NCBI RefSeq assembly: GCF_019972135.1
Contig: NZ_BPFI01000001.1
Coordinates: 417,106 to 481,105, forward strand
Length of the DNA stretch: 64,000 bases
DNA from: Sulfurovum sp. TSL1
Lineage (GTDB): Bacteria; Campylobacterota; Campylobacteria; Campylobacterales; Sulfurovaceae
Direction of reading: 5' to 3'
Shown: piece by piece, positions 3,516 to 9,973 of the stretch
Position numbering within the stretch: the stretch's first letter is position 1
Layout: each line of letters starts with the position of its first letter
Notes under the pieces: generated by a model
What the model saw: the letters and a program-made list of their open reading frames with translations, nothing else
Database searches by the model: none
What the model was told of the DNA's origin: nothing
Translations under genes and position numbers: made by a program

Positions 3516-3902
3516 TTATGCTTCTACAGTTACTTCTTTTTCCGTACCTTCCCAGATACCGTGCTTAGTACAGTAACCATGTGCATTAAGCTTAAGCTTT
3601 TTACCAGTTGGGATGATAGTAAAAGTTGTTGTGTTATGTGCTTTAGTGTTACCAAGAGTTCCCGGTACATACGTTGCTTTTGCAAGTTGAGTATCACCAT
3701 CAAAAAGTGTTACAGATTCGATATAGTGATCAAAGTCATCCGGGTGAGTATACTCGTTACCCATTTTTACAGTTACTTCAAACGGCTCACCGGCTTTTGC
3801 AGTATCTGCACAGTGAATGAATGGAGAGTGTCTGTCGATAAGGTCTTTTTTCGCTTCTCTATCGATCTCTGAAATGTCTTGGTATTTGTTGATTTTTGGC
3901 AT
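3516..3902 (-). CDS. Superoxide reductase (neelaredoxin/SORL class)
   Basis: 128 aa. Superoxide reductases reduce superoxide to peroxide at a mononuclear Fe(His)4Cys centre in the cytoplasm. The ligands are visible: His25 in DRHSPFI, His53 and His59 in HPDDFDHY, and Cys111 and His114 in YCTKHGIWE. The usual Glu of the EKH motif is Asp23 here. There is no N-terminal desulforedoxin domain, so this is the one-iron class. It is a single gene with an A-rich ribosome site (AAAAAGGAAAAAT before ATG) and its own promoter-like -10. The assignment is strong; it fits a microaerobic organism needing oxygen-radical defence without producing O2. Confidence 0.9.
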   Translation of the reverse strand: MPKINKYQDISEIDREAKKDLIDRHSPFIHCADTAKAGEPFEVTVKMGNEYTHPDDFDHYIESVTLFDGDTQLAKATYVPGTLGNTKAHNTTTFTIIPTGKKLKLNAHGYCTKHGIWEGTEKEVTVEA

Positions 3903-4165: not shown

Positions 4166-5056
4166 TTATGCTGTATAAAGATGTTTCGCTTTTTGAACGT
4201 GGAAGTTAAGTCCGATCTCTTTTTCTGTACATCCAAGCGCAAGCGCAACCATTTGCGGCATATGTAGTACCGGAAGTTCTACATCACGGCCCATCACTTT
4301 ACTTATACTGTCCTGGTAGGTATCCATTTTCAAGTGACACAGAGGACATGGTGTGACCATGAGGTCTGCATTGTTATCCATGGCATCCAGCAGGGCATTA
4401 CCGGCAAGCACTTCAGACGTATGGTTCGCTTGTAGTTCTACGTGGAAACCACAACATTTGTTCTTACTCTCATAATCTACCGGGTTACCTTCAAGTGCAT
4501 CGATAAGACTGTCAAGAGATGTAGGTTTGTACGGGTTTTCATGACCATTCGCATCTTCATGCAATTCAGAAGGACGGATGTTATGACAACCGTAGAACGG
4601 TGCAATATTCAGATGACTGAGTGGTACTTGTACCTTATTTTTAACATTCTCCAAACCATACTCGTCGATAAGTGTGTAGAGGAAGTGTTTGATCTCAGAT
4701 GTACCTTTGTACTCAAGCCCGACTTCCGCAAGTTTTTCGTTGACTCTCGCTTTAAGCTCCGGATCGGTATCAAGGGCATGTTTTGTCATCGCAGAGTTCA
4801 GCTGGCATGTATTACAGATCGTGATCATCGTAAGGCCCAGTTTTTCTGCATAACAGATGTTTCTCGCATTGAGTACGTGTGCCAAAAACTCATCGAAGTC
4901 CTGCAGGTGGCTTGCACCACAACAACTCGCTTCTTCCAATATAGTGATCTTGATACCCAACTTATCAGCTACTGCAAGTGTAGATGAAAGTAACTCAGGT
5001 GTAGACTGCTTCGCAGTACATCCTGTAAATAATGCATAGTGTAATTGTTCGCTCAT
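4166..5056 (-). CDS. sdhE: SdhE/MfrE-type succinate dehydrogenase (fumarate reductase) subunit, HdrB-like
   Basis: 296 aa with two CCG domains, as in heterodisulfide reductase HdrB. The first has Cys13, CCGASH and CNTC; the second has GCHNIRP, CCGFH and CPLCH. In non-classical succinate dehydrogenases and methylmenaquinol:fumarate reductases this subunit carries the cysteine-rich clusters and takes the place of the haem membrane anchor. No membrane span is visible, so membrane contact would be through amphipathic parts. It is the last gene of a minus-strand operon, 9 nt after sdhB. MfrE is the equivalent name in Wolinella and Campylobacter. Confidence 0.88.
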   Translation of the reverse strand: MSEQLHYALFTGCTAKQSTPELLSSTLAVADKLGIKITILEEASCCGASHLQDFDEFLAHVLNARNICYAEKLGLTMITICNTCQLNSAMTKHALDTDPELKARVNEKLAEVGLEYKGTSEIKHFLYTLIDEYGLENVKNKVQVPLSHLNIAPFYGCHNIRPSELHEDANGHENPYKPTSLDSLIDALEGNPVDYESKNKCCGFHVELQANHTSEVLAGNALLDAMDNNADLMVTPCPLCHLKMDTYQDSISKVMGRDVELPVLHMPQMVALALGCTEKEIGLNFHVQKAKHLYTA

Positions 5057-5065
5057 CTTTTCTCC

Positions 5066-6055
5066 TTACAGTTTATTTGTTTGTGAAATTTCAATCAGTT
5101 TTTGAACTTCATCCAAGTTTTTGATCTTTGGAATACTGTCAATGAACGGTACCCCTGAATGCCAGTGAATTTTACCGCTTTTCATCATTTTCATCGCAGT
5201 ACCTATGTGTTTATATGCACCGAGTAAGCCTTCAGAGTAGGTAACGATATCTGCTTCATCAAGATAACCGTACTTTTTCATACCTCTAAGGAAACCTTCT
5301 GCGTGTTTTGTTGCCACGTTTCGCTCAGCAATACCCTGTTCAAACTGCATGTTATGAAGTTTTGTGATCTTCTCTATAGGATTGATCTCTTTTGGACACG
5401 CTTCTGCACATTCAAAACACTTCACACAATCCCAAACACCTTGACCTGCCTGTGCAGTCAACTCCAGACGTTCTGCACCAGCACTGTCTCTCGTGTCTAC
5501 AGTAAACCTATATGCCGCAGCAAAAGCAGCAGGTCCGAAGAACTCCGGGTTCACTTCAAGAGCAGGACATGAGTAGTGACACGCACCACACTGGATACAA
5601 AGATCAGAATCCAGGAAGTTATTGAACTCACTGATAGATTGCTTTGTCTCATGTGTTGGATGAGGATCAACGTCTGCAACGACATAAGGCTTGATCGCTG
5701 CATGTTTTTCCCAGAAGTCTGATTTGTCAATGATCATATCTTTGATAGCACGTTTTTTAGAACTTGGCTCAAGCGTGATGTCATTATCAAAAAGGTCTAA
5801 GAGTTCGATAGCATTTTGTTTACAGGCAAGAACCGCTTTTCCGTTGACTTTGATTGCACAGGCACCACAGATACCGTGACGACAAGAACGTCTATAAGAG
5901 AAACTTCCGTCATGCTCCCATTTGATTCTGTTCATAAGGTCAAGGATCAAATCATCTTTTCCTACTTCCATTTCATACTGCTTTGTATATGGAAGATAGT
6001 CTGTTTCAGCATTAAATCTGAATGCTTTTATTGTTACTTTTCTAGTTTCACTCAT
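5066..6055 (-). CDS. sdhB: Succinate dehydrogenase/fumarate reductase iron-sulfur subunit (SdhB/MfrB)
   Basis: 329 aa. The N-terminal ferredoxin domain has the [2Fe-2S] motif CRHGICGAC and a distal Cys in LACKQ. The C-terminal domain has CIQCGACHYSC and CVKCFECAEACP for the [4Fe-4S] and [3Fe-4S]-type centres. It carries electrons between the flavoprotein and the HdrB-like subunit. The frame is open further upstream, but AGGAGG lies 5 nt before the second ATG of an ATGATG pair, which fixes the start at 6055. The ribosome site overlaps the sdhA stop region (10 nt gap), so translation is probably coupled. Confidence 0.93.
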   Translation of the reverse strand: MSETRKVTIKAFRFNAETDYLPYTKQYEMEVGKDDLILDLMNRIKWEHDGSFSYRRSCRHGICGACAIKVNGKAVLACKQNAIELLDLFDNDITLEPSSKKRAIKDMIIDKSDFWEKHAAIKPYVVADVDPHPTHETKQSISEFNNFLDSDLCIQCGACHYSCPALEVNPEFFGPAAFAAAYRFTVDTRDSAGAERLELTAQAGQGVWDCVKCFECAEACPKEINPIEKITKLHNMQFEQGIAERNVATKHAEGFLRGMKKYGYLDEADIVTYSEGLLGAYKHIGTAMKMMKSGKIHWHSGVPFIDSIPKIKNLDEVQKLIEISQTNKL

Positions 6056-6065
6056 CATGACCTCC

Positions 6066-7793
6066 TTAATATGTTCTTTCTTTAGGCTCAAACTTACCAA
6101 GCACTACATCACCCCATTCTTGGGTAATGTTAAAATCTTTATCCATATATGCATAGGTATGCTTCAAGAACTTCTCATCATCTCTTTTAGGGAAGTCTTC
6201 ACGATAGTGACCACCGCGGCTCTCTTCTCTGTTAAGCGCTCCGACAACAATGAACTTAGAGAACTCTAACATATGTCCAAGCTCTAAAGCTTCCTGAAGA
6301 TCTGTATTGAAAGTGTCTGATTTGTCATCTATACGGATGTTGTTAAATCTTTCCAAAAGATCATCGATAAGCGCCATTTGTCTTTCTAAAGATTCTTTAC
6401 TTCTGAATACACCTGCATCAGCGGTCATCCCGTTTTGAAGCTCGATTCTGAGTCCAGGAACCGTTTCAATACCGTTTGACGTTTTGATCTTATGCATCTC
6501 TTCGATCATTCTGTCAGCATCTGAAGCAGTAGCTTTACGCAATTCTATACCTTCATCAAGTGCCTTGATCATGTTTTCACCGGCATGACGACCAAAGAGC
6601 AGGGCTTCAAGTACTGAGTTTGCACCCAAACGGTTCGCTCCATGTACCGATACACATGAACACTCACCAGCTGCGTAGAAACCTTCTACCAATTCTCTTG
6701 GATTTTTACGAACCTGACAGTCGATATTTACGGGGATACCACCCATAGAGTAGTGCGCTGTTGCCGAAATATGAATAGGCTCTTTAAGCATGTCCTGTCC
6801 TTGGAACGCGATAGCAAGTTCACGTAGTTCCGGAAGGCGTGTTAAGATGATCTCAGGATCAAGGTGGGTAAGATCAATGTTCACTGACTGGCCATCCTTA
6901 CCTACACCTCTACCTTGGCGTACCTCTTCCATAATAGCTCTGGATACAACGTCACGTGAAGCAAGTTCCATGGCATTTGGTGCATACTTGCTCATAAATC
7001 TTTCACCTTCAGAATTGTAAAGACGGCCACCTTCACCACGTGCCGCTTCTGAGATAAGTACACCTGAACCACCAAGTCCACTTGGATGGAACTGAACAAA
7101 CTCCATATCTTCAAGAGGAAGACCATGACGTGCTACAATTGAAAGAGAATCACCCGTGTTCGCATGTGCATTTGAGTTAAATCTATAGGCTCTGGCATGT
7201 CCGCCTGTAGCGAACATCGTTACTTTTGCATTGAATATAGCCGGTTGTGAATTACGGATATTATAGGCAGCAACACCAGATACTTTTCCATCTTCATAGA
7301 GAAGATCAGCAGCATACCACTCATCAAATATCTCTACACCAGCACGGAATGCCTGCTCATAAATAGTCTGAAGCAGTGTAAGTCCTGTTCTGTCTTTTGC
7401 ATAACATGCTCTAGGCTGGGACTGTCCACCAAAAGGTCTGATAGCAATATCACCTTCTTCATTTCTTGAGAATACAGCTCCCATTCGCTCTGCCCATCTG
7501 ATAGTCTCAGGAGCTTTTGAACACATAAGTTCAACACAGTCCTGGTCTGCAAGATAGTCAGAACCTTTTACCGTATCGAACTCATGAAGTTCCGTAGAAT
7601 CATCCTTACCAAGAGCGGCGTTAATTCCACCTTGTGCTGCGCCTGAGTGAGATCTTAATGGGTGAAGTTTTGTAATAACCGCTGTCTTTTTCCCTGCTTC
7701 TGTCAACTCTTTAGCTGCTGCCAGTCCAGCTAGTCCAGAACCAACGATGACTGCGTCATATTCGTAGATTTTAATATCTGAGTTTTTGCTCAT
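6066..7793 (-). CDS. sdhA: Succinate dehydrogenase/fumarate reductase flavoprotein subunit (SdhA/MfrA), no Tat signal
   Basis: 575 aa. [10 protein letters not shown] is the FAD-binding glycine motif; [13 protein letters not shown] includes the histidine that usually carries covalent FAD; HYSMGG and the GANRLGANS stretch belong to the dicarboxylate site. It interconverts succinate and fumarate. The start at 7793 is chosen because [13 protein letters not shown] leads straight into the Rossmann fold with AAGGA about 10 nt before. The frame runs open to 7925, but that extension is Arg/Lys-rich and does not resemble a domain. MfrA of Wolinella is exported by a twin-arginine signal; neither possible start here has one, so this enzyme should face the cytoplasm. 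Confidence 0.95.
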
Positions 7794-7935
7794 AGTATCT
7801 ATATCCTTTTGTTTACAATTTGGCCTATTATATCTTTTTAGCATTAATTTTCGTAATAAATTGGAGTATAAGCGAGGAAAAGTAGGGAGGTGTACAGTTT
7901 CGTAGCGTGGCAATTCAGCCAACACTACTTGTGGA

Positions 7936-9003
7936 TCATGCTGCGATAGAATTTACTTGCAAAACAAAATCATTTGCAGAGATAAGTTCTAGACCTTTTA
8001 TCTTTCTACCTACTATTTTTTCTATGGCAGCATAGTGTTTCCTGAACATGTCAAGTATGTCAAGATCTTCAACTATAAGCACTTCAGCACCACGGTCATA
8101 CGCATCTAAAAGTATGACACCTGCTTTTTGTAAGGCAAGGTCTCTGTTCTCTTCCAATATCCCAAGTCCGGCAAGTTTTCCAGATCTTGAGAAGTGCACA
8201 CCTTTCATACCTTTTTCAGCGATCAGTTTGTGCATGGTATCATGGGAAGCAGGGCCATGATAATGTGCGACCTGTTTTTCTTCCAGATTTTCAATCGTCT
8301 CAACAGCTCTTTCGGGTACAGCAGCTTCAATCTCTTTCTCCTCTTTTTTGGAAAAGCGTGCTATCAGTCTTGCACAGAGAGAAGGACCTTCTTCCGGTTT
8401 AGCCATCGCTTTGAGTTCATTGATCGCAGCAGTATGGTCCTGGGCATTAAAGAGGTTGTTTTCATATTCACAGTCAAACAATCCCGAGTTCACAGAAGTG
8501 ATCGCCTCAAGTATCGCTTCTTTATGTTCTGACCCTTCTGTGATCATTTTATGTGCCAGAACGAGTACTGCATCACCGATGTACTCACGGTTAAAGTTTT
8601 CTGTCTCTGATGCATAGTGAAGTGCATACAATGTTTTGTAGTATGTTAGATCTGATTCTGAAGCATAAGGAGCCAAAAGTTCAAAACTTTCCATAAAGTC
8701 ACTGTCATTGATCTTCAGTCCATCATTGGAACGATAGCTGTTTGCCGGATCGATCTGTAAAGAGGTTCCAAGTCTTTCCACCAACGCTGAAACAGGTTGC
8801 TTCGCCTCTACAACAAGACCGTTGATCTTCATGATAAGTTTTTGTTTCGGAAAACTGAAGTTTTCGTTCTCTTCTTGTATCTTTACAAGCAGGTCTTTCG
8901 CTGTCGCATCCTCATTCACCCGGATCGTGAAGTTTTTGTAGTAAGGCAGATAGTCTGTTTTCGCATTAAAAAAGAATGCTCTTATTTCAAGTGTATATGA
9001 CAT
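7936..9003 (-). CDS. Clusterless SdhB-SdhE-like fusion protein (function unknown)
   Basis: 355 aa. The first 200 residues align by eye with the neighbouring SdhB: both open with an AFxFNAxTDYLPY motif, keep the [11 protein letters not shown] equivalent of KVNGKAVLACKQ, the [14 protein letters not shown] segment, and GLFDC for GVWDC. The whole [2Fe-2S] cysteine loop is deleted and the 4Fe-4S cysteines are replaced. The last 110 residues align with the C-terminal half of Sdh[19 protein letters not shown] against AGNALLDAMDNNADLMVT, and [11 protein letters not shown] against VMGRDVELPVL, again without cluster cysteines. A charged linker (about 210-235) joins the parts. It lies 142 nt upstream of sdhA. 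Probably an assembly or regulatory factor for the Sdh complex; this is inference. It may belong to an unnamed Campylobacterota DUF family. Confidence 0.8.
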
Positions 9004-9145
9004 AGGTATTTCCTTAATAAAGATTATTTAGTATAACTTATACAACTATGAATGAGACTATTTGACTCTTACTAAAGCGAAAACACTTGAACTATGTTAC
9101 AATTCTACCAATTCTAAAGATCTAAGCGCTCAAAGGACAGAAACT

Positions 9146-9973
9146 ATGCCCAAACAGGATAAAGAACAATACCTTATAAACAACCTAGCTTCGAAGTATG
9201 TAGGTGATGATGCCGCTGTTGTAGGAGATACGCTTTACAGCATGGATGCTTTCTTTGAAGATACACATTTCAAACGTGAATGGATGAGCATAGCACAGAT
9301 AGGACGTAAAGCGATGCTTATCAACATTTCTGATGCCATTGCCATGAATGCTCAGCCGAAATTTGCTCTTATTACCGTCTCTCTGCCTCACAGTGTTACT
9401 GAAGATGAGATAGATGAACTCATGAATAGTATGGACAAGACAGCAAAAGAGTACGGTTGTGAGATCATCGGAGGAGACACGATAGGAGGAGACAAGCTTC
9501 ATCTCTCTATTACGATCATTTCGAAAAGTGATACCCCTCTCTTACGTACAGGATTAAAAGAGGGGGATCTGTTAGCCTATACAGGAACACTGGGAGAGAG
9601 TAAACGAGACTTTGATGCTCTTTCCAGGGGTGAAAAAATAGCTGATGATTCCCGCTTTTTTGAGCCTACTTTAAGGTCCGAATTTGTAACCAAAGCAAGA
9701 CCTTTTTTACGGACAGGTATGGACATCTCAGATGGACTCTTTTGCGATACGAACAAGATGTTAGATATTAATAAATATGGATTTCATGAATTTGAAAAGA
9801 TCGACGATGAGATGGGGCTTAGCGGAGAAGAATATGAAATGTTGGTAAGTTTTGCACCGGAGCATTACAGTGATGTCATGCGGATCGCCGAAGAGACCAA
9901 TACCCCTTTAACCGTCTTTGCCAAAGTGGCTAAGAACAGTGATAGGTATAAGTGTAAAAGTCACCACTTTTAG
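9146..9973 (+). CDS. thiL: Thiamine-monophosphate kinase
   Basis: 275 aa. ThiL phosphorylates thiamine monophosphate to the active cofactor thiamine diphosphate. The family signatures are present: VGDDAAVV near the N-terminus, the INISDAIAMNAQPKFALI segment, GGDTIGGD in the middle and GMDISDGLFCD near residue 190. The open frame extends upstream to a TTG at 9062, but AAAGGA lies 8-9 nt before ATG 9146 and MPKQDKEQYLI starts the conserved part. Slightly short at the C-terminus, as in other Campylobacterota. Divergent from the SdhB-like gene. Confidence 0.92.
   Translation: MPKQDKEQYLINNLASKYVGDDAAVVGDTLYSMDAFFEDTHFKREWMSIAQIGRKAMLINISDAIAMNAQPKFALITVSLPHSVTEDEIDELMNSMDKTAKEYGCEIIGGDTIGGDKLHLSITIISKSDTPLLRTGLKEGDLLAYTGTLGESKRDFDALSRGEKIADDSRFFEPTLRSEFVTKARPFLRTGMDISDGLFCDTNKMLDINKYGFHEFEKIDDEMGLSGEEYEMLVSFAPEHYSDVMRIAEETNTPLTVFAKVAKNSDRYKCKSHHF

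Follow-up and report, generated by a model that had tools for sequence, protein, structure and literature searches.

Introduction

One described protein with an SdhB-like part followed by an HdrB-like part in one chain is TfrB, a subunit of the CoM/CoB fumarate reductase, which carries clusters. A second point of comparison is the H. pylori structure 3kwl, which has an SdhB-like N-terminal and an HdrB-like C-terminal half, both without clusters, and which from its length and domain content is apparently HP0468. A literature search turned up no function for HP0468, for DUF5644, or for Cj1459 and Cj1460, the C. jejuni counterparts presumed from gene order. HP0468 is reported to be induced by H2 (PMC6090961).

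Here we analyse a gene for a 355-aa protein, called protein X below, in a stretch of 64,000 nucleotides from Sulfurovum sp. TSL1 (the window). X shares with TfrB the one-chain layout but has no cluster motifs and no match to the TfrB model (NCBIfam PRK06259), which matches the window SdhB and SdhE. With SdhB/FrdB it shares the fold over residues 1-205 and the scaffold residues, but all three cluster cysteine sets are missing, as is the SdhB C-terminal extension; with SdhE/HdrB it shares the fold of the C-terminal CCG domain and matching GR(E/D)I and LDAxDxGAD segments, but the CCG cysteines are gone and the first CCG domain is missing. Compared with 3kwl, whose 514 aa include both HdrB-like domains, X has the second only. 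The features of the locus are as follows.

7936 to 9003, minus strand: protein X, a cluster-free SdhB-SdhE fusion of the DUF5644/HdrB-like_C family, 355 aa
8389 to 9003, minus strand: X residues 1-205, the SdhB/FrdB-like half, lacking the cysteine sets of the 2Fe-2S and of two further clusters (hhalign, structure, cysteine columns)
8308 to 8388, minus strand: X residues 206-232, the linker and low-confidence part of the model (pLDDT 51-73 around residues 200-230)
7939 to 8307, minus strand: X residues 233-355, the second CCG domain (HdrB/SdhE C-terminal), cysteines gone (hhalign, structure)
7797 to 7935, minus strand: X-sdhA intergenic gap; a conserved extended -10 here (TATAAT, 7827-7832) resembles a promoter serving sdhABE independently of X
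6066 to 7796, minus strand: sdhA, flavoprotein subunit of a type-E succinate:quinone oxidoreductase
5066 to 6055, minus strand: sdhB, Fe-S subunit (12 of 12 cluster cysteines present)
4166 to 5056, minus strand: sdhE, CCG-domain subunit (SdhE/HdrB-like)
3516 to 3902, minus strand: desulfoferrodoxin/superoxide-reductase-like (SOR-like) gene (PF01880, E 2e-23), repeatedly found beside the X/sdhABE cluster in the neighbour tally
9062 to 9973, plus strand: thiL-like gene, divergent from X and its most conserved neighbour by recurrence across loci; putatively thiL

The X gene is an open frame with an ATG start. It lies upstream of sdhABE as the first-pass annotation had placed it, with sdhA, sdhB and sdhE directly downstream on the same strand, and its best-matching named record is that of Sulfurovum sp. 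AR (87% identity in X). The same genome holds, on another contig (L233, G000:C3, 3516-5842), a second pair of SdhA/FrdA-like (534 aa) and SdhB/FrdB-like (249 aa, 12 cysteines) genes.

Two subunit folds without their clusters

The first-pass annotation had read X as an SdhB-like N-terminal half joined to an SdhE-like C-terminal half, and profile and structure comparisons bear this out. In profile-profile alignment by hhalign (an alignment of 51 relatives for X, type-E SdhB on the SdhB side), residues 3-204 match SdhB 5-240 at E 5.7e-31 and residues 205-354 match SdhE 97-277 at E 6.5e-19. Matches in the PDB include SdhB/FrdB (1nek, 1kf6), HdrB (8rvu, 5odc, 7bkb) and, at 2.2e-38 (profile of 25 fusions), 3kwl, to which X is homologous across both halves (hmmsearch with the family profile, two stretches). 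An AlphaFold2 model of X (pLDDT 92.3, pTM 0.86) places residues 1-205 on FrdB 1qlb_B with the two-domain SdhB fold (Z 17.4, 3.1 Å, 198 residues) and residues 233-355 on HdrB 7bkb_B with the CCG domain fold (Z 12.5, 3.0 Å, 118 residues), the latter also on 5odc_B (Z 12.2); Foldseek ranks 3kwl top for the model (E 2.9e-14), with SdhB/FrdB after it. The structural check set beforehand for the two halves thus found both the SdhB/FrdB fold and the CCG domain, and the profile-profile, PDB profile and structure matches together rule out a chance resemblance to SdhB and SdhE.

The cluster ligands tell a different story from the folds. X keeps one of the 12 invariant cluster cysteines of SdhB (C178, equivalent to SdhB C210), the other 11 being changed or deleted, and its second CCG domain has lost all five cysteines; CCG cysteine motifs are absent, and of the CCG repeats only the second is present. 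The earlier statement that every Fe-S cysteine was deleted or changed therefore stands for 11 of the 12 positions in the SdhB half and fails at C178, whereas its count of two remaining cysteines in 355 aa is exact. Near-invariance of C178 is confined to the Sulfurovum-like members, some of which contain two cysteines in a row (CC). In the alignment the 2Fe-2S loop of X is shortened, and two of the loop's four cysteines fall in the gap. Each of the 51 family members has a cysteine at no more than one SdhB cluster column and no more than one SdhE cluster column, and none has a CxxC; a residual metal site was rejected on this basis. Where the genes are split in Arcobacter-like genomes, a full-length SdhE-like partner is encoded, each of its CCG cysteines being replaced (for example FTGCTAK to FDNIIEK). 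Across 37 invariant non-cluster SdhB positions the mean share kept in X is 0.44, against 0.04 for the cluster cysteines and 0.14 for their flanks; since scaffold positions are kept while cysteines and flanks are not, the SdhB scaffold has been retained and the redox centres lost. The proposal that X cannot transfer electrons accordingly holds for the usual cluster route: with the cluster cysteine sets lost family-wide, X is predicted from its sequence to be unable to carry electrons as SdhB or HdrB does.

A solved family in fused and split forms

X is not unique to the window: it belongs to a Campylobacterota family that is widespread and has a solved structure. Pfam catalogues this family piecewise, as DUF5644 and HdrB-like_C; X of the window is placed correctly but falls under the cut-offs (14.3 against 25 and 18.2 against 33.4 bits, respectively), and split and Helicobacter-type homologues pass them. 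Both HdrB-like domains are present in the fusion of the Helicobacter type, 496 aa long in L104; the Sulfurovum type lacks the first of them, through loss. Separate, neighbouring genes encode the two halves in Arcobacter-like genomes and in part of the Helicobacter-like and Campylobacter ones. The N-terminal half forms a single clade with 100/100 support, apart from SdhB, MfrB and FrdB, and on the tree the form changes between fused and split five times, at least three of these being forced by well-supported branches. In the loci examined the halves co-occur, fused or adjacent, and this repeated joining or adjacency argues that they act together. One locus (L093 2523-4151, genome G265) carries X behind a DUF309 domain (PF03745, E 2.9e-12), and similar DUF309-X fusions are suggested in G219 and G256 by long frame length only.

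Gene neighbourhood and occurrence

The commonest order, in 68 loci from named records, is thiL (minus), X (plus), sdhA, sdhB, sdhE; in the remaining loci X comes after sdhE or at a distance from these genes. Adjacency of X to thiL and/or truD is frequent in other families, with sdhABE present or absent. Recurrent operon partners were set aside as a clue to function, the neighbours being mostly housekeeping (thiL, truD, murA-like) and lineage-specific. A cysteine-containing protein of 75-76 aa, with no significant Pfam match (L091 5417-5647, L092 6951-7178, L125 6362-6589), lies directly downstream of X in seven loci, f18-like together with matching named records.

An extended -10 element, located 25-48 nt upstream of the sdhA start, occurs in 29 of 32 related X-sdhA gaps (mean after shuffling 1.6, maximum 7). 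It is therefore very likely that sdhABE is transcribed from a conserved promoter of its own, separate from X. An exact GTAACA about 90-110 nt before sdhA recurs in 24 of the 32 gaps (shuffled mean 1.6), with the variant GTACAC in the window, and this element may be a regulator site of sdhABE.

A phylum-wide search returned genomes all within Campylobacterales. By profile search of 298 Campylobacterales genomes (counts by hand, approximate), X is present at E < 1e-48 in 106 and at E 1e-28 to 1e-38 in a further 18 Helicobacter-like genomes, which lack a type-E SdhB that could confuse the search. About 64 of the approximately 124 X-bearing genomes are without SdhE, and about 140 genomes have SdhE and no X. 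The genomes with X and no SdhE belong to Helicobacter-, Sulfurospirillum-, Arcobacter- and some Campylobacter-like families, mostly with Frd; FrdA is present in nearly all of them and also in many genomes without X. In families such as f14 and f18, the members that carry X have SdhE but lack FrdA, and no association of X with FrdA was seen within families f1, f14, f16 and f18. One Arcobacter-like genome (G140, 1.5 Mb, 99% complete) has the X pair (L242 676-2180) beside thiL and SOR; neither SdhB nor FrdB was found there, the sole SdhA/FrdA-type match being an L-aspartate-oxidase-like flavoprotein, and in this 110-contig assembly a missed complex II is conceivable. In G039, G060, G061, G091 and others, SdhE matches stop at about residue 170-176 although the frame is longer, and each genome yields more than one of them, possibly reflecting an insertion in the SdhE of these genera.

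These counts, together with G140, exclude a role strictly needing SdhABE and make one strictly needing complex II unlikely. The distribution likewise rejects, as sole explanations, that X is an accessory of SdhABE only or of Frd only. The SdhABE-specific role that the first-pass annotation had envisaged is thus not upheld, the separate sdhABE promoter also speaking against it.

Discussion

We favour, as more likely than not, a neofunctionalised paralogue: X would combine a pseudo-SdhB with a pseudo-SdhE, both derived from complex II subunits and both cluster-free, would act by binding, and would have a present job independent of SdhABE and, in at least one genome, of any complex II. With the redox centres gone and both folds kept, binding is the most likely mode: the two halves would keep an SdhB:SdhE-like mutual contact, and X may serve by binding alone in a structural or regulatory capacity, as a docking platform, chaperone or competitor, with no part in electron transfer. 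X probably arose beside sdhABE, in a thiL/X-sdhABE-superoxide reductase arrangement, through copying of sdhB and sdhE, the same cluster's own pair being the likely source; the tree is unrooted for the order of duplication and loss. At first X may have served complex II. On this inferred history, some lineages later lost sdhABE from an ancestral cluster with the order truD-thiL / X-sdhABE-SOR.

A present role at complex II is the strongest competitor, if a rather unlikely one: X would be a dedicated scaffold, placeholder or inhibitor that occupies the SdhB site on SdhA (or FrdA) and so retains or blocks this flavoprotein until loaded SdhB and SdhE arrive. The retained SdhB fold fits such docking, as does gene order, in that most close Sulfurovum genomes have the arrangement thiL/X-sdhA-sdhB-sdhE and X also adjoins sdhABE in families f6, f8 (G132), f14 and f16. 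SdhE or FrdA occurs in nearly all X genomes, but this co-occurrence says little, given that nearly every Campylobacterales genome has complex II; many genomes with SdhABE or Frd do without X, G140 has X and neither enzyme, and the shortening of the 2Fe-2S loop also counts against this role. Docking of X on the complex II flavoprotein is plausible in SdhABE/Frd hosts, and is not the whole story.

Improbable by comparison is that X partners the SOR-like neighbour or another non-complex-II protein, for example as a docking protein. In many loci the SOR-like gene is located after sdhABE, and where Arcobacter-like loci lack sdhABE, G140 included, it comes directly after the X pair; however, it was found in only 22 of 110 loci (a count lowered by short contigs), X has no redox centre for passing electrons on, and the arrangement is easily explained as what remains of one ancestral cluster after sdhABE loss.

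X is under purifying selection, 4-6 times looser than that on SdhA, SdhB and SdhE. Against Sulfurovum sp. AR its dN/dS is 0.17 (dS 0.35), compared with 0.025-0.046 for the three subunits (dS overall about 0.35-0.67), and across comparisons it ranges over 0.09-0.17, on which grounds a pseudogene is rejected. That X is decaying, functionless debris of a duplicated sdhB-sdhE is hardly credible: the looser constraint in the closest pair and the patchy occurrence within families would suit it, but the low dN/dS, frames open across many genera, invariant residues (F12, D17, Y22, P86, R91, D102, A301), the confident fold of the model and retention in the 1.5-Mb genome G140, where no complex II was found, all stand against it.

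A neofunctionalised, cluster-free pair acting by binding gives the DUF5644/HdrB-like_C (3kwl) family an evolutionary identity, that of a respiratory electron-transfer pair stripped of its centres and kept by selection. A structurally solved, uncharacterised family is thereby recognised as a cluster-free SdhB-SdhE pair, and this family spans Helicobacter, Campylobacter, Arcobacter- and Sulfurospirillum-like genomes and Sulfurovum. Few redox subunits have become purely protein-binding components; here the parents are frequently encoded alongside, which makes the binding question directly testable. Campylobacterota may well have turned an sdhB-sdhE pair into a cluster-free two-part protein that took on a role outside complex II, in many families, and was kept after the parent enzyme was lost, a proposition that we hold about evenly balanced.
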